Source: a virus
Virus record (IMG/VR): IMGVR_UViG_3300024306_000088
Span: 1-22,939 of that record
Reading direction: 5' to 3' (one strand)
DNA length: 22,939 bases
The notes beneath the pieces are model-generated. The model saw only the letters and a list, made by a program, of their open reading frames with translations, did no database searches and was not told the origin of the DNA. Positions 4,499 to 18,515 of this stretch are shown piece after piece (within the stretch, counting starts at the first letter, position 1; each line of letters opens with the position of its first letter). The translations under genes were made by a program, and so were the position numbers.

Positions 4499-5488
4499 AT
4501 GATTAAAAAGAATAATAAGATGACAGATGAAAGGAATTATTTTAAACCATTTAACTATCCATGGGCATATGAAGCATGGCTAAAGCATGAGCAAGCACAT
4601 TGGTTACATACTGAAGTTCCAATGGCAGAAGATGTTAAAGATTGGAAGAAAAAATTAACTAAAGAAGAAAAACAGTTTCTTACTAACATCTTTCGTTTCT
4701 TTACGCAAGGTGATATCGATGTGGCAGGTGGTTATGTTAAGAACTATCTACCATATTTTCCACAACCAGAAATCCGCATGATGCTTTCTGGTTTTGCAGC
4801 ACGTGAATCATTACACATCGCTGCATATTCACATTTGATTGAAACACTAGGTATGCCAGAATCAACATACAATGAGTTTCTTGAATACCAAGAGATGAAA
4901 GATAAACACGATTATGTTCTTCAACTCAGTTCAAAGAATGGAACATTAGAATCTACTGCTACTCACATCGCTGTATTCTCTGCATTTACTGAGGGTATGC
5001 AGTTGTTTAGTTCTTTCATTATGTTATTGAATTTCCCACGTCATGGTTTGATGAAAGGTATGGGTCAGATTATTACATGGTCAATCGTTGATGAAACCAT
5101 GCATGCAGAATCAATGATAAAATTATTCAAAGAATATATTAAAGAGAACCCAGAAATCTGGAATGATGAATTAAAATCAAAGATATATACTATTGCTGAA
5201 AAAATGGTTGCACTCGAAGACAAGTTTATTGATTTATCATTCGCTGGGTCACATATGCGTGACTTGGAACCAGAAGAAGTTAAACAGTATATTCGCTATA
5301 TTGCTGATCGTCGCCTAATTTCAATGGGTATGAAAGGGATATTCAAAGTTAAAAAGAATCCACTACCATGGGTTGAGGAAATGATTAATGCTCCAGTACA
5401 TGGTAATTTCTTTGAAAATCGTGTTACTGATTATGCTAAAGGTGCTTTATCAGGAAGTTGGGATGATGTTTGGGGTAAAGCAGCTTAA
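4499..5488 (+). CDS. nrdB: Class I ribonucleoside-diphosphate reductase, beta subunit
   Basis: This is the small RNR subunit, which houses the diiron-tyrosyl radical cofactor used by NrdA. It has 329 residues. Ligands and radical site by analogy with E. coli R2 are an Asp in FTQGDIDVAGG (D72 or D74), E103 and H106 with Y110 seven residues after E103 (ARESLHIAAY), E165 (FTEGMQ), and E199 with H202 (VDETMH). A radical tyrosine is therefore present, which argues against a Tyr-less R2 class. GAGG at 4489-4492 lies 6 nt before ATG 4499, so that start is preferred over the in-frame ATG at 4520. The stop overlaps the start of the desaturase gene (TAATG), so the two are coupled. Confidence 0.95.
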   Translation: MIKKNNKMTDERNYFKPFNYPWAYEAWLKHEQAHWLHTEVPMAEDVKDWKKKLTKEEKQFLTNIFRFFTQGDIDVAGGYVKNYLPYFPQPEIRMMLSGFAARESLHIAAYSHLIETLGMPESTYNEFLEYQEMKDKHDYVLQLSSKNGTLESTATHIAVFSAFTEGMQLFSSFIMLLNFPRHGLMKGMGQIITWSIVDETMHAESMIKLFKEYIKENPEIWNDELKSKIYTIAEKMVALEDKFIDLSFAGSHMRDLEPEEVKQYIRYIADRRLISMGMKGIFKVKKNPLPWVEEMINAPVHGNFFENRVTDYAKGALSGSWDDVWGKAA

Positions 5489-6198
5489 TGATAGAATTAC
5501 TTTACCTGTTAATAACAACGCACATTACTATAGTGTGCGTTACACTTTACCTGCATAGAGGACAAACCCATAGAGGTATAGAGTTTCACCCAGCACTATC
5601 TCATTTTATGAGATTTTGGCTTTGGTTAACAACAGGTATGGTAACAAAGCAATGGGTTGCTGTTCATCGTAAACACCATCAGATGTGCGAGAAACCTGGA
5701 GATCCACATTCACCACATGTATATGGAATTATGCATGTTTTATTTGGAGGAGCGTTATTATACCATGAAGCATCAAAAGATAAAAATATGGTTGATTCAT
5801 ATGGTGTTGGTACTCCTGATGATTGGATTGAGCACAACCTATACAGTTCTCACTCCAGACTTGGCATTGGCATTCTCCTTGTGTTCAACCTGATTGTATT
5901 TGGTTGGATTGGTTTATTACTATGGGGTATTCAAATGATATGGATACCTTTCTGGGCTGCAGGTGTTATAAATGGTTTAGGTCATTGGTGGGGATACAGA
6001 AACACCAATACTAAAGATCGATCGAAAAATATTTCTTTTTTCGGTATAATTATTGGGGGAGAAGAGTTTCATAATAACCATCACGCAGAGCCAGCAAACC
6101 CAAAATTAAGTAGAAAATGGTGGGAATTTGATATTGGATGGATGTGGTTTAAGGTTTTTAATACATTAGGATTAGCAAGGGTCAAAAATGTCGACTAA
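5488..6198 (+). CDS. Membrane fatty acid desaturase (acyl-CoA/acyl-lipid desaturase family)
   Basis: This is a 236-residue integral membrane diiron desaturase. The three histidine boxes are intact: H23-RGQT-H28, H60-RK-H63-H64 and H195-NN-H198-H199, with a further metal-ligand candidate at H166 (NGLGHWWGYRN), an arrangement typical of delta-9 acyl-CoA or acyl-lipid desaturases. Hydrophobic segments lie near residues 4-21, 41-52, 84-92 and 125-165. Such enzymes insert a cis double bond into an acyl chain using O2 and a reductant. The start overlaps the nrdB stop. Desaturase and RNR both use O2-activating diiron centres, but a functional tie is speculative. It may alter host membrane fluidity during infection. 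The reductant must come from the host, since no fused cytochrome b5 or reductase is present. Confidence 0.85.
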   Translation: MIELLYLLITTHITIVCVTLYLHRGQTHRGIEFHPALSHFMRFWLWLTTGMVTKQWVAVHRKHHQMCEKPGDPHSPHVYGIMHVLFGGALLYHEASKDKNMVDSYGVGTPDDWIEHNLYSSHSRLGIGILLVFNLIVFGWIGLLLWGIQMIWIPFWAAGVINGLGHWWGYRNTNTKDRSKNISFFGIIIGGEEFHNNHHAEPANPKLSRKWWEFDIGWMWFKVFNTLGLARVKNVD

Positions 6199-12404: not shown

Positions 12405-12517
12405 TACACCCAATAGATCTTTGGGTTTGGTATTTTCTACAAGTATGGTTTCTTCCGTATCGCCTAGCAGGTAGCGTTGATACAGTCTGTAAAACCCCAA
12501 ATTTAGTCTTAAAATAA
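12401..12517 (+). CDS. Putative 38-aa hydrophobic microprotein
   Basis: This ORF starts by ATGA overlap with the nuclease stop and ends at TAA 12515-12517. The product has an aromatic hydrophobic segment (LWVWYFLQVWFLPY, about 7-20) and a polar tail. The stop codon is followed directly by a repeated hairpin that at its second copy (17331) also abuts the stop of a real gene, which supports this ORF being translated. No family is recognised, and the short length keeps confidence moderate. Confidence 0.5.
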   Translation: MIHPIDLWVWYFLQVWFLPYRLAGSVDTVCKTPNLVLK

Positions 12518-12535
12518 CCCTACAGTTTGTAGGGT
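12517..12535 (+). repeat. Stop-abutting hairpin, copy 1 (ACCCTACA/TGTAGGGT)
   Basis: This is an 8-bp perfect stem with a 3-nt loop, beginning at the last base of the upstream TAA. The same unit (AATAACCCTRCA, then TTGTAGGG) recurs at 17328-17347. No T-tract follows, so it is not a standard terminator. Confidence 0.7.
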
Positions 12536-12593: not shown

Positions 12594-12622
12594 TTTACAA
12601 TAATTCAGATCTGATGTATAAT
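12594..12622 (+). promoter_or_regulatory. Strong sigma-70 promoter
   Basis: TTTACA (12594-12599), a 17-bp spacer and TATAAT (12617-12622): 5 of 6 and 6 of 6 consensus. It shares the 14-nt string TTTACAATAATTCA with the promoter at 17364. It reads into the small-gene cluster from 12653. Confidence 0.9.
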
Positions 12623-13991: not shown

Positions 13992-14020
13992 TTGACATTA
14001 AAATGAAAGTAGTGTATAAT
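13992..14020 (+). promoter_or_regulatory. Perfect-consensus sigma-70 promoter
   Basis: TTGACA (13992-13997), a 17-bp spacer and TATAAT (14015-14020) match the E. coli sigma-70 consensus in every core base. The element overlaps the start of the small ORF at 14003, whose codons for V-Y-N contain the -10. It probably drives the genes from 14136 onward. Confidence 0.85.
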
Positions 14021-14864: not shown

Positions 14865-15142
14865 ATTATGTATTGACACCTGAACAAAAAAAAGACCTGC
14901 AGAATGCCATTCGTGAAATTAGTAATTCAATGACACGAACTGAAGCAGAACGTGATTTAATTAAAGATATTGTAAAAGCACAATCTGACAATTTACAGAT
15001 TCCAAAGAAAATCATTTCTAAAATTGCCAAGACTTTTCACAAACAAAGTCTGCACCAAGAAGTTGCCGATCATGAAGATTTTGTTGAGTTGTATGAAAAG
15101 GTAACAAGTGTTAATCAACAGAAAAACCCCCAACAACCATAA
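14861..15142 (+). CDS. DsbA-like dsDNA-binding protein (T4 DsbA family)
   Basis: This 93-residue helical protein contains RDLIKDIVKAQSDNLQIPKK and, near the end, DFVELYEKV. As I recall T4 DsbA (89 residues), it has LIKDI near the middle and a VELYD motif close to the C-terminus at the same spacing, so this is probably a homologue. T4 DsbA binds double-stranded DNA and has been linked to late transcription. The gene starts by ATGA overlap with a membrane protein gene and its 3' end overlaps the hydrolase gene by 35 nt. Confidence 0.65.
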   Translation: MNYVLTPEQKKDLQNAIREISNSMTRTEAERDLIKDIVKAQSDNLQIPKKIISKIAKTFHKQSLHQEVADHEDFVELYEKVTSVNQQKNPQQP

Positions 15143-15746
15143 ACATAGACTTTTATATTTGATGGGTGTCACATGGAAGTATGACACCATGTTCAACTCT
15201 GCATTCACAGAACATAACTTTCAACAGCTGTTATTTAAAGCAGGTGTTGAAACTATCTCTGTAGATTATGAGTTGAGTGACACATATGAGAGTTTAGTTG
15301 AAGATGTAAATAAAATTACTCCAGAAGTAGACTTTATCATGGGGTATAGTTTTGGTTGCTTACTTGCTGTAGCCACTGCACAGAAAAATACAAAAGGTAT
15401 AATTCTCTTAGATGCTAACTCGCTAGGTGGTAATGCTGGATTGAATTATATTCAGGATAAAGAGACAGCGCAACAATTTTTCGAGAGAGATCTGGCTACT
15501 AAAAATGAAAAGTTGAAAGATATCCCTGAGAAGTTGATTATAAATCCCTATAAACCAAAAACATTTTTAATTTTTAGTGAGTATGGTGATAAGAATAACA
15601 ATCTGGCAACGCATGGTATGTATTTAAGAGCGTTGGGTAAAGTCAACAAAACTGTTATCAGACACTCATCTCATTACATAATGATAGAACCTGCTAGATT
15701 TGAATTGGCAAAAGAAGTTATAGGAATAATGAATGCACATACTTGA
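15108..15746 (+). CDS. Alpha/beta-hydrolase fold protein, small (first of the cassette)
   Basis: This 212-residue protein has a nucleophile elbow G79-Y-S81-F-G83 after the strand VDFIMG, a candidate acid in SEYGD161 and a histidine in HSSH (H186/H189), which together make a catalytic triad of an alpha/beta hydrolase. Start GTG 15108 is chosen because AAAAGG (15096-15101) lies 6 nt before it and because the strand RLLYLMGV, which should hold the oxyanion site, would be lost with ATG 15162. It lacks a signal peptide, so it is cytoplasmic. Substrate unknown: thioesterase, esterase or acyl transfer are all possible. It is followed directly by an aminotransferase (14-nt overlap) and then by a second hydrolase. 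Confidence 0.75.
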   Translation: MLINRKTPNNHKHRLLYLMGVTWKYDTMFNSAFTEHNFQQLLFKAGVETISVDYELSDTYESLVEDVNKITPEVDFIMGYSFGCLLAVATAQKNTKGIILLDANSLGGNAGLNYIQDKETAQQFFERDLATKNEKLKDIPEKLIINPYKPKTFLIFSEYGDKNNNLATHGMYLRALGKVNKTVIRHSSHYIMIEPARFELAKEVIGIMNAHT

Positions 15747-16557
15747 TTACCCAGCATGGAAAAATGGTAAGTACTGTAAAGTTAAAGATCTAAATGTTTC
15801 TGTTTTAGATCTTGGATTAATTCATTGTGATGCTACTTATGATGTTCTTGCAGTTAAAAACAATCAGATTGAAAACTTTGATGCACACCTAAGTAGATTC
15901 ATTCGTAGTTCTAAGGGATGGAGAATCCCTGTTAATTATTCTGATAATGATATTGAGATTGTCATACAGACTTTAATATCAATGACACCAGTAGACGATC
16001 TTTTAGTTTGGATTGGTTTGACGAGAGGTATACCATCTTCTGGGAACCCAAGAGATCTGGCTAACTGCGAACCAAATATATTCATATATGTCAAACCATA
16101 CTATGGGTTCAACAAAGACAACTCTGCTACAGTTTGTTTATCAAAACAAAAGAGAAATACATCAATTGATCAGACAATGAAGAACTTTTCTTGGAATGAT
16201 TTGAACCTTGCGCAGTGGGAAGCAATTGATCGTGGCTTTGATACTGCAGTTCTTCTTGATGATAAAGGTTATCTAACTGAAGGACCAGGATTCAATGTTG
16301 GTGTTATTAAAGAAAATTTTGTATATGCACCAAGACATAATTGTCTAAAGGGTACTGTTATGGATTTGGTTAAGTCTACTTGTGACAGAGAAGGTGTATG
16401 GTTTGAGTATGGCGACATATCGCCATCTTTTGTTGAAGATTGTGATGCAATGTTTTTAACTTCTACTGCAGGGAATGTAATCCCTGTTAAATGTTTTGAG
16501 GGTAAGTATTTTAATGATAATGAGGTTTTAACATGGTTACAACAGAAGTTAGTCTAG
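15733..16557 (+). CDS. Fold-type IV PLP-dependent aminotransferase (BCAT/(R)-transaminase-like)
   Basis: This 274-residue enzyme belongs to the class IV aminotransferases (branched-chain, D-amino acid, (R)-amine transaminases and aminodeoxychorismate lyase). Visible features are R55 (HLSRF, PLP phosphate), catalytic K150 in DQTMKNFSWNDLN, E183 in LTEGPGFNV (PLP ring nitrogen) and TSTAGNVIPV at 243-252 (phosphate site). The K150 region and the TEGPGFN motif look most like the branched-chain/(R)-amine transaminase group, but substrate specificity cannot be read with confidence, and a pABA-forming lyase cannot be excluded. It overlaps the upstream hydrolase by 14 nt and the downstream hydrolase by 25 nt, so the three are co-translated. 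AGGA at 15722-15725 precedes the ATG. Confidence 0.85.
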   Translation: MHILDYPAWKNGKYCKVKDLNVSVLDLGLIHCDATYDVLAVKNNQIENFDAHLSRFIRSSKGWRIPVNYSDNDIEIVIQTLISMTPVDDLLVWIGLTRGIPSSGNPRDLANCEPNIFIYVKPYYGFNKDNSATVCLSKQKRNTSIDQTMKNFSWNDLNLAQWEAIDRGFDTAVLLDDKGYLTEGPGFNVGVIKENFVYAPRHNCLKGTVMDLVKSTCDREGVWFEYGDISPSFVEDCDAMFLTSTAGNVIPVKCFEGKYFNDNEVLTWLQQKLV

Positions 16558-17330
16558 AACAAAATAAACATCTATTATTTCTGTTACCTGGACAAAGTTT
16601 ATCACCACGTGCATTCTGGGATTTTAAACTACCAGATGGTCACACTCACATAGATTATTTCCTTAGTGCTGGTATAGATGTAATTTTATTTGATCCATGT
16701 GGTTATGGTGAAAGCACTGACTACTATCAATATGACAGGATTGGATATGCAGATCAGATTGAATCTGCCATCAAAGAACTAAAGAAAAAATATGTTTCTA
16801 AAACTATCTTTGGTTTCTCAACTTCAACTGCGCCAGCATTGATCGCAGGTGAACGTGGACTTTTTGATAAAGTAATTATACACAGCCCATCAATTCGCAT
16901 GGATAAAAGATATTATGTTAAGATTGATACAGAGTATTTTGAAACTGGAATTGAAAAACTCAAAAAAGAACGTATCGAAAAAATTAGCGATAAACTAATA
17001 CCATCACCGAATAGAATCGAAGGATGGGAACAAAAAATTCTTGATGTGGTTGGCAGTGACACATGGAAAGTCCCATCACAACCTGTTTATGATATCAACA
17101 ATTATTGGGTTGATACAGGACAGTTAGGATTTGATCCTGCAAAAGTTCCACCGATCCTAAGCATTATTGGAGAGTTTGACTATGAGTCTACCACAGGTGG
17201 CTATGATACGTTTAAGGGACTGTTTCCAGACTCCAAGGAAGTAGTTATCCCCTACTCTACCCATTTCTCTATGTGGGAGAACTCATCGGCTCTAACTCGC
17301 TTAGAAATGATCCAATGGGTCTTGCAATAA
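16533..17330 (+). CDS. Alpha/beta-hydrolase fold protein (second of the cassette)
   Basis: This 265-residue protein has an oxyanion-type strand LLFLLPGQSLSP near the N-terminus, a strand ending DPCGYGES, a nucleophile elbow G94-F-S96-T-S98 (last Gly replaced by Ser), a candidate acid in GEFDYE (E214/D216) and catalytic histidine H244 in STHFSMWE. It is therefore a probable active serine hydrolase. It is cytoplasmic (no signal). GAGG at 16522-16525 lies 7 nt before ATG 16533, inside the aminotransferase gene. It differs in length and sequence from the first hydrolase, so they are not recent duplicates. The stop is followed at once by the repeated hairpin. Confidence 0.8.
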   Translation: MVTTEVSLEQNKHLLFLLPGQSLSPRAFWDFKLPDGHTHIDYFLSAGIDVILFDPCGYGESTDYYQYDRIGYADQIESAIKELKKKYVSKTIFGFSTSTAPALIAGERGLFDKVIIHSPSIRMDKRYYVKIDTEYFETGIEKLKKERIEKISDKLIPSPNRIEGWEQKILDVVGSDTWKVPSQPVYDINNYWVDTGQLGFDPAKVPPILSIIGEFDYESTTGGYDTFKGLFPDSKEVVIPYSTHFSMWENSSALTRLEMIQWVLQ

Positions 17331-17347
17331 CCCTGCAACTTGTAGGG
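17328..17347 (+). repeat. Stop-abutting hairpin, copy 2 (CCCTGCA/TGTAGGG)
   Basis: This is a 7-bp stem with one G-U pair and a 3-nt loop, directly after the TAA of the second hydrolase. It matches copy 1 at 12517 in sequence, loop size and position relative to a stop codon, and is likewise followed by a TTTACA promoter. Confidence 0.7.
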
Positions 17348-17363
17348 GAATGAAAAATAGTTC

Positions 17364-17392
17364 TTTACAATAATTCAAAAATAGGGTATAAT
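17364..17392 (+). promoter_or_regulatory. Strong sigma-70 promoter
   Basis: TTTACA (17364-17369), a 17-bp spacer and TATAAT (17387-17392). The first 14 bases equal those of the promoter at 12594, and GGG precedes the -10 as at 19926. It drives the gene at 17421 and probably RNase H. Confidence 0.9.
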
Positions 17393-17420: not shown

Positions 17421-18515
17421 ATGGCTATGAATACAGCGAAACGTAAGGAACTGGTTGCTACTATGAAAGGTGGTGAACCTGAGTTGAACCCTGCTAACTA
17501 CAACAGTAGTTTTCTTGGGTTACTAAATTATTACAACTATAACAACGATGACAAAGATAAGAAGAAGTGGCTTATCAGTCATGTTGCTAAGACTAATAAA
17601 AAATTAGCAACACAACTTCTAAAAATTGACGAGAAACATTTTCGTTATGCTGGCATTCTAGCACGCATCGCTGATCGTGGTGGTCAACTAGAAGAAAAAC
17701 ACCAGCTGTTTTTGGAAAACAAAATCACAGAACTAACAAACTTCAAACCAAAGAAAGAAGTTAAAGTAGAAACCCCAGTAGTGACTAATGTTATTTCTAT
17801 TCAAGATAGAATGGATGAGAAAGCACACGAACTCGCAGGTGAGATTGAGGGTGCTATTGATGACTTTGTATTGGGTGGTTGTAAGTCTGACTTCTCAGCT
17901 AAAAATTATCTACTGGCACAACAAGTAGCAGCACCGATTGCTAAACGTATTGGTGAGTTGTTTGTTCCATTAGCTGATGAACTGCGTGAAACAATTGCTG
18001 GTGATGACGAACAACTTGTTGAAGGTTATTCAAACTTTACTAAACGTGAACTAAAGAAATTCTTGGAGTTCGTGGATAACATCGTTGCTGATTGTAACCA
18101 GATGGTTCAGACTGCTAAAGCGAATCGTGCTCCACGTAAACGTAAGGAAGTCCCTGCATCTAAGCAAGTAGCCAAGATGAAATATCTCAAAGAGTTTGCG
18201 GAGCTAAACCTAAAGTCTGTAAACCCCACAAGTATCATTGGCTCAACAGAGGTATGGTACTACAACACCAAATACAAACATGTTGGTGTGTATAAGGGTG
18301 AGAATGGTGGAACTCTATCTGTTAAAGGAACTACCATTATCGGTTTCGATATTAAAGAATCAAAGCGTATGACTCTACGCAAACCTGAAGAATTCTTCAA
18401 AGGGTTGTCGTTGGGTAAACGTGCATTGAATAGTGCAATCAAAACACTAAAGACTAAACCAGCAGTGCCGAATGGTCGATTCAATGAAGACTGCATTTTA
18501 CTTGGAGCATTTTGA
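17421..18515 (+). CDS. Conserved protein of unknown function, upstream of RNase H
   Basis: This 364-residue soluble protein has a helical N-terminal half with a basic, linker-like stretch at about 230-245 (RAPRKRKEVPASK) and a C-terminal beta-rich part (EVWYYNTKYKHVGVYKGENGG, SVKGTTIIGFD). GGAGG at 17407-17411 precedes ATG 17421, and an alternative ATG at 17427 is less well placed. From memory, aquatic T4-like phages (including cyanophages) have a protein with the same SVKGTT and TLRKP C-terminal region. Linkage to RNase H hints at a replication or repair role, but no catalytic motif is seen. Confidence 0.8.
   Translation: MAMNTAKRKELVATMKGGEPELNPANYNSSFLGLLNYYNYNNDDKDKKKWLISHVAKTNKKLATQLLKIDEKHFRYAGILARIADRGGQLEEKHQLFLENKITELTNFKPKKEVKVETPVVTNVISIQDRMDEKAHELAGEIEGAIDDFVLGGCKSDFSAKNYLLAQQVAAPIAKRIGELFVPLADELRETIAGDDEQLVEGYSNFTKRELKKFLEFVDNIVADCNQMVQTAKANRAPRKRKEVPASKQVAKMKYLKEFAELNLKSVNPTSIIGSTEVWYYNTKYKHVGVYKGENGGTLSVKGTTIIGFDIKESKRMTLRKPEEFFKGLSLGKRALNSAIKTLKTKPAVPNGRFNEDCILLGAF

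Follow-up and report, generated by a model that had tools for sequence, protein, structure and literature searches.

What two hydrolases and an aminotransferase might do together in a T4-like phage is the question raised by three consecutive genes in a virus record of 22,939 bases, the whole of which is referred to here as the window. The genes, named HYD1, AT4, and HYD2, encode proteins of 212, 274, and 265 aa. Their ORF coordinates confirmed overlaps of 14 nt between HYD1 and AT4 and 25 nt between AT4 and HYD2, as an initial interpretation made from the DNA alone (the sequence-only reading) had claimed (Table 1).

Table 1. Positions of the cassette genes and neighbouring elements in the window.
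Feature	Position	Strand	Description
Candidate promoter of the operon ending with the cassette	13992..14020	+	TTGACA-N17-TATAAT, sigma-70-type, 12/12 consensus
HYD1	15108..15746	+	ORF with GTG start; small alpha/beta hydrolase; optional cassette member
AT4	15733..16557	+	Fold-type-IV PLP enzyme, (R)-amine-transaminase-like; from Pfam, PDB matches, 24 homologues, and a tree
AT4/HYD2 overlap, 25 nt	16533..16557	+	22 or 25 nt wherever both genes are adjacent and intact
HYD2	16533..17330	+	Alpha/beta hydrolase, triad S96 - D216 - H244; from Pfam, AlphaFold, and 28 homologues
Hairpin CCCTGCA-ACT-TGTAGGG	17331..17347	+	Follows the HYD2 stop immediately; another copy near 12518-12534
Promoter-like site of the next gene (17421-18515)	17364..17392	+	TTTACA-N17-TATAAT, 11/12

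The sequence-only reading had placed two hydrolases around a PLP enzyme, and both profile searches and structure prediction agreed. AT4 matched Pfam Aminotran_4 (PF01063) at 5e-35 (121.7 bits; cut-off 28.5), while HYD2 matched Abhydrolase_1 (PF00561) at 5e-6, barely over the cut-off (26.9 bits against 25.8), and the match of HYD1 to Abhydrolase_6 (0.002) was sub-threshold. AlphaFold models of both hydrolases resembled alpha/beta hydrolases, with a best Z of 21.5 and rmsd of 2.9 over 230 residues for HYD2 (pLDDT 90), and a best Z of 19.3 and rmsd of 3.2 over 207 residues for HYD1 (pLDDT 83). The predicted structures settle that HYD1 and HYD2 have the alpha/beta-hydrolase fold. The fold matches were generic and pointed to no particular substrate.

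Residue conservation was counted in homologue alignments of 24 AT4s, 28 HYD2s, and 14 HYD1s. In AT4, R55, K150, E183, L205, S244, and T245 were invariant, including all of the PLP-binding residues (R55, K150, E183, and T245). The protein has the hallmarks of a class IV PLP aminotransferase: the Aminotran_4 domain, the PLP lysine, the Glu to the pyridine N, and the phosphate Arg. K150 and E183, previously described as intact, were at the claimed positions in 24/24 homologues, and the HYD2 nucleophile S96 likewise in 28/28. Also invariant in HYD2 were H244, E218, and the G20-Q21 loop, with D or E at position 216, giving the nucleophile-acid-His triad that accompanies the fold in the alpha/beta hydrolase superfamily. 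In HYD1, G79, G83, D102, and H189 were invariant. Position 81, the proposed nucleophile S81, does hold the nucleophile but is not always Ser: it is Ser in 6/14 homologues and Cys in 8/14. Cys nucleophiles occur in the alpha/beta-hydrolase superfamily, for example in dienelactone hydrolase. HYD1 has the superfamily fold and, with S/C81, H189, and D102 as its probable acid, the triad, although its Pfam score is below the cut-off. The triads and the PLP lysine were therefore conserved, apart from the alternation between Ser and Cys in HYD1. Across pairs, dN/dS was 0.03-0.23 for the three genes (0.06-0.23 for HYD1), with several dS values >1 and saturated; at such ratios all three genes show every sign of being maintained, and the idea that they are neutral passengers was ruled out.

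On the TRANSAMINASE question for AT4, PDB sequence matches were led by (R)-amine-transaminase (R-TA)-type chains (1e-37 to 1e-25), with the Bacillus D-amino-acid enzyme at 4e-13 and the E. coli branched-chain enzyme at 4e-7. Several of the top chains were named branched-chain aminotransferase by their depositors, and TIGR01122 (ilvE_I) was the top NCBIfam match by score, as might be expected of an L-branched-chain transaminase supplying or draining leucine, isoleucine, and valine during infection. However, the score of 93.3 bits is far under the TIGR01122 cut-off of 245.55, and canonical branched-chain enzymes such as 1a3g score far below R-TA-type enzymes. In place of the branched-chain motif YxxxxF[ED]Gx[KR] (PMC8401098), AT4 has H31, Y36, D37, V38, and A/S40, and YxR is also missing. 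A branched-chain role, which would leave the hydrolases unexplained, is in our view unlikely.

We compared AT4 with the motif table for class IV enzymes (PMC8401098 Table 1, after Hohne et al.). R-TA motif 1, HxxxxYD[VT]x[STAHP] (PMC8401098), was present, with H31, Y36, D37, and V38 in 24/24 homologues and A or S at position 40 in 23/24. R-TA motif 2, [FY]V[EQAWNS]...[RKFGP]x[STANER] (PMC8401098), was matched in part: AT4 has L91-[VL]92-W93 and G104-N-P106 by ungapped count in a loop of uncertain alignment, where W93 is allowed, L91 stands instead of F/Y, and P106 instead of STANER. The N-terminal helix of R-TAs (about 20 residues) is missing, with phage residue 8 aligning to R-TA residues 30-50. 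In this respect AT4 is like the expanded-specificity enzyme CpuTA1, which also does not have the helix (PMC5131300). A canonical D-amino-acid transaminase was rejected at 74.7 bits to TIGR01121 (cut-off 277.45), with H31, A/S40, and L-x-W departing from the corresponding motifs, FxxxxYxV[IVA][KR] and HxY...[RK]xH (PMC8401098). AT4 was far under every NCBIfam equivalog cut-off. We interpret AT4 as a putative R-TA-like enzyme whose substrate may differ from those of R-TAs, given motif 2 and the missing N-terminal stretch.

The sequence-only reading had also suggested folate/pABA supply linked to ThyX, in which case AT4 would be an aminodeoxychorismate lyase (PabC). The two have a Pfam family in common, and a ThyX-type gene, as putatively assigned in that reading, lies at 1778-2476 of the window. 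Yet AT4 scored 19-65 bits against aminodeoxychorismate-lyase cut-offs of 177-308, and 0/12 related records, four of them >160 kb, contained a chorismate-binding (PabB-type, PF00425) gene, although host PabAB could serve. The PabC step has no place for two hydrolases. The suggestion was left unsupported, and we consider it very unlikely.

HYD1, AT4, and HYD2 were all without a match in PHROGs, and tblastn against INPHARED gave no match for HYD1 or HYD2 and four weak matches for AT4 (22-25% identity), in two unannotated Staphylococcus records and two Acinetobacter records annotated ilvE. These four look like bacterial rather than phage counterparts. In IMG/VR, the cassette genes recur in order in about 30 contigs from T4-like phages, so that co-occurrence extends to other phages; this recurrence and the dN/dS of 0.03-0.23 speak against a chance arrangement. 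Pattern scans of IMG/VR identified AT4 at 18 loci, HYD2 at 41, and close relatives of HYD1 at 8, several of these loci being copies of one virus. A limited literature search covering few subscription journals found no reports of phage class IV aminotransferases. The AT4-HYD2 gene pair is real and apparently undescribed as such; the enzyme families themselves are known.

Gene order was compared by clustering all ORFs, at about one locus per contig. Wherever both genes were readable, AT4 immediately preceded HYD2 and the two shared exactly 22 or 25 nt, usually at a ATGGTTAC-like junction, except in one lineage with a 199-aa gene between the two (L006, L021, and L022) and in L003, where the HYD2 frame is shortened. 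By eye, the 199-aa insert (L006:3821-4420, L021:7400-7999) is possibly of the 2OG-Fe oxygenase type; it had no NCBIfam match. HYD2 lacked an accompanying AT4 only in more distant lineages (L048, L049/L050), and AT4 was not found elsewhere in these partial records.

The AT4-HYD2 arrangement is kept in both of two genomic settings. In the first, which includes the window, the order is DsbA - (HYD1) - AT4 - HYD2 - p364 - RNase H - DUF6433, with the RNase H nearest to those of T4-like phages of Synechococcus and Pelagibacter (about 42% identity). In the second (L036, L038, L041/L052, L047, and L055), the pair lies inside a different gene block. HYD1 is directly before AT4 in most phages of the first setting, is 4.8 kb off in L038, and was not found in the near-complete records G002 (165.6 kb) and G004 (170.8 kb). 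Weak HYD1 matches in G003, G009, and G012 proved to be on HYD2 genes, and the G001 match was to a third gene for an alpha/beta hydrolase. Since HYD1 is elsewhere or absent in some phages while AT4-HYD2 is constant, the cassette is most aptly seen as a core of two genes with a third that is optional. The three-gene unit originally proposed thus holds for its AT4-HYD2 core but not for the trio as a whole. Distance-matrix correlations were modest (r 0.50 for AT4-HYD2, 0.48 for AT4-HYD1), and because HYD2-RNaseH was equally high (0.56), co-evolution of AT4 and HYD2 beyond shared position is unsupported. Separately, a FISKDGFVYAPRSNRL-like block in the C-terminal half of AT4 was common to otherwise distant AT4s (L027, L030, L032, L042, and L045), which suggests recombination inside the gene.

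The second setting raises the strongest rival reading, namely that AT4-HYD2 contributes one step to a longer phage pathway. Such a pathway would build or decorate a molecule (a tail-fibre peptide, surface glycan, tRNA, or small metabolite) and would also draw on methyltransferases, 2OG-Fe oxygenases, PP-loop synthetases, and symporters. Loci of this setting embed the pair among two methyltransferases, one of them CmoA-like, a small membrane protein with DUF6356, 2OG-Fe oxygenases, and in most cases a PP-loop protein, and PP-loop/c28 genes with a sodium-solute symporter lie downstream in some phages of the first setting. In most phages of the first setting, however, including the readable part of the window, these partners are not beside the pair but in a separate variable region, and we regard a longer pathway as doubtful.

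Several other accessory genes were recorded at these loci. L052:450-15613 and L038:737-10789 are dense accessory blocks with several 2OG-Fe oxygenases, two methyltransferases, DUF6356, PP-loop proteins, a radical SAM/SPASM protein, DctP and TctC solute-binding proteins, and a cupin. L027:12321-16663 carries Peroxiredoxin-like and AhpD-like genes followed by a PP-loop-like gene, an ATP-grasp ligase (GARS_A), and a third alpha/beta hydrolase in a row. A c28 and PP-loop pair adjoins a sodium:solute symporter in both settings (L029:5107-8478, L047:8764-12300). In the window, a fatty-acid desaturase-like gene (5488-6198; phrog_35201 match at 8e-19, no INPHARED tblastn match) lies directly 3' of a ribonucleotide reductase small-subunit-like gene.

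A repeated hairpin-promoter unit had been taken as the downstream boundary of the cassette. The hairpin does occur twice in the window (12506-12534 and 17319-17347), with TTTACA-N17-TATAAT 3' of both copies, at 12594 and 17364. The GGGTATAAT element (TATAAT) is conserved ahead of the gene at 17421-18515 in most relatives, and in the many relatives where the hairpin is missing the promoter-like site persists; the unit therefore belongs to the next gene and does not mark the cassette. Promoter-like sites were overall no commoner than in shuffles, and only its 12/12 score supports the site at 13992, from which host RNA polymerase would transcribe the operon early.

This consensus sigma-70 promoter, and a location among regulatory and replication genes of T4 type (DsbA, RNase H), would suit enzymes for DNA-base modification or for an attack on a host defence or signal molecule. 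However, the nearest families are small-molecule enzymes, and 11/12 related records do not have a gene of the thymidylate-synthase family, which includes the makers of hydroxymethyl-pyrimidines. With such a gene in 1/12 records only, the earlier suggestion of base modification gained no support, and the wider possibility of a base or defence target seems very unlikely. The one match, at 2412-2918 of IMGVR_UViG_3300025382_000007 (G007), contains one in-frame TAA.

In the tree, phage AT4s formed one group apart from the bacterial relatives found (98/96), on long branches. No bacterial operon with the pair was found: 13 bacterial AT4 relatives (27-35% identity) had no HYD1 or HYD2 homologues in their available flanks, in a scan with two peptide patterns that distant or differently patterned relatives may escape. 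Because the phage AT4s group apart and no bacterial relative adjoins HYD1 or HYD2 homologues, the pair seems to have been in phages for a long time and not to have come recently from a host.

Collectively, the genes and their conservation, the fixed AT4-HYD2 arrangement, the intact catalytic residues, purifying selection, and the nearest enzyme families were observed directly. As an explanation we tentatively favour, at a probability of roughly 0.45, an auxiliary metabolic cassette of uncultured T4-like phages in which hydrolysis by HYD2 is linked to (R)-amine or D-amino-acid transamination by AT4. AT4 would transfer an amino group between a keto acid and either a D-amino acid or an (R)-amine, and HYD2 would hydrolyse an ester, amide, or lactam, either releasing the AT4 substrate or clearing its product. 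The overlapping frames would have AT4 and HYD2 co-translated, probably at a near-fixed ratio. HYD1, optional and with Ser or Cys as its nucleophile, would be an additional hydrolase fitting the pathway to specific hosts or substrates. Of this scheme, we infer from the gene overlap the translational, near-stoichiometric coupling; that the enzymes share one pathway, the (R)/D stereochemistry, and the type of bond cut by HYD2 are likewise presumed. The dispensability of HYD1, the modest AT4-HYD2 distance correlation, and the lack of a bacterial operon with the pair to name a pathway count against it. The original suggestion of a small-molecule pathway, in contrast to those of folate supply and base modification, was strengthened by the co-occurring genes, conserved catalytic residues, and metabolic nearest families.

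A more speculative and rather improbable idea is that phages have a dedicated pathway not known from cells: the shortened transaminase and co-translated hydrolase would remodel a host D-amino-acid or amine metabolite (e.g., from cell-wall turnover) for the benefit of replication, and HYD1 would alternate between Ser and Cys catalysis from phage to phage. With the cassette, the metabolic genes of uncultured T4-like phages gain a recurrent two-gene core of transaminase and overlapping hydrolase that lies outside PHROG families. Should the (R)/D stereochemistry hold, phages would manage host D-amino-acid or amine pools, and enzymes known mainly as industrial biocatalysts would have a natural physiological setting.

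Among characterized systems, the best AT4 matches in the PDB, over nearly the full protein, were (R)-amine:pyruvate transaminases (Aspergillus terreus 4ce5, Arthrobacter-type 3wwh, and bacterial R-TA-like chains, among them 6fte). AT4 shares with fold-type-IV R-TAs the PLP residues, motif 1, the TRG segment, and a loop arginine (R107). Unlike them, phage AT4s are short, at 267-296 aa (mostly about 272) compared to 320-363, do not have the N-terminal stretch, differ in motif 2 at L91 and P106, and occur together with hydrolases. HYD1 and HYD2 resemble the aryl esterase / bromoperoxidase / MenH / C-C hydrolase superfamily in fold, nucleophile elbow, and the His after the last strand, but share only about 10-18% identity with known members and could be placed in no particular family. 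The S96-D216-H244 arrangement of HYD2 is canonical for alpha/beta hydrolases, whereas HYD1 differs in using Ser or Cys and in that its sole suitably placed invariant acid candidate, D102, follows strand 6. The transaminase-hydrolase pair is unlike known T4-like auxiliary metabolic genes in not being found in INPHARED isolates or PHROGs, but like them it consists of accessory enzymes whose genes occupy variable sites amid a T4-like core.
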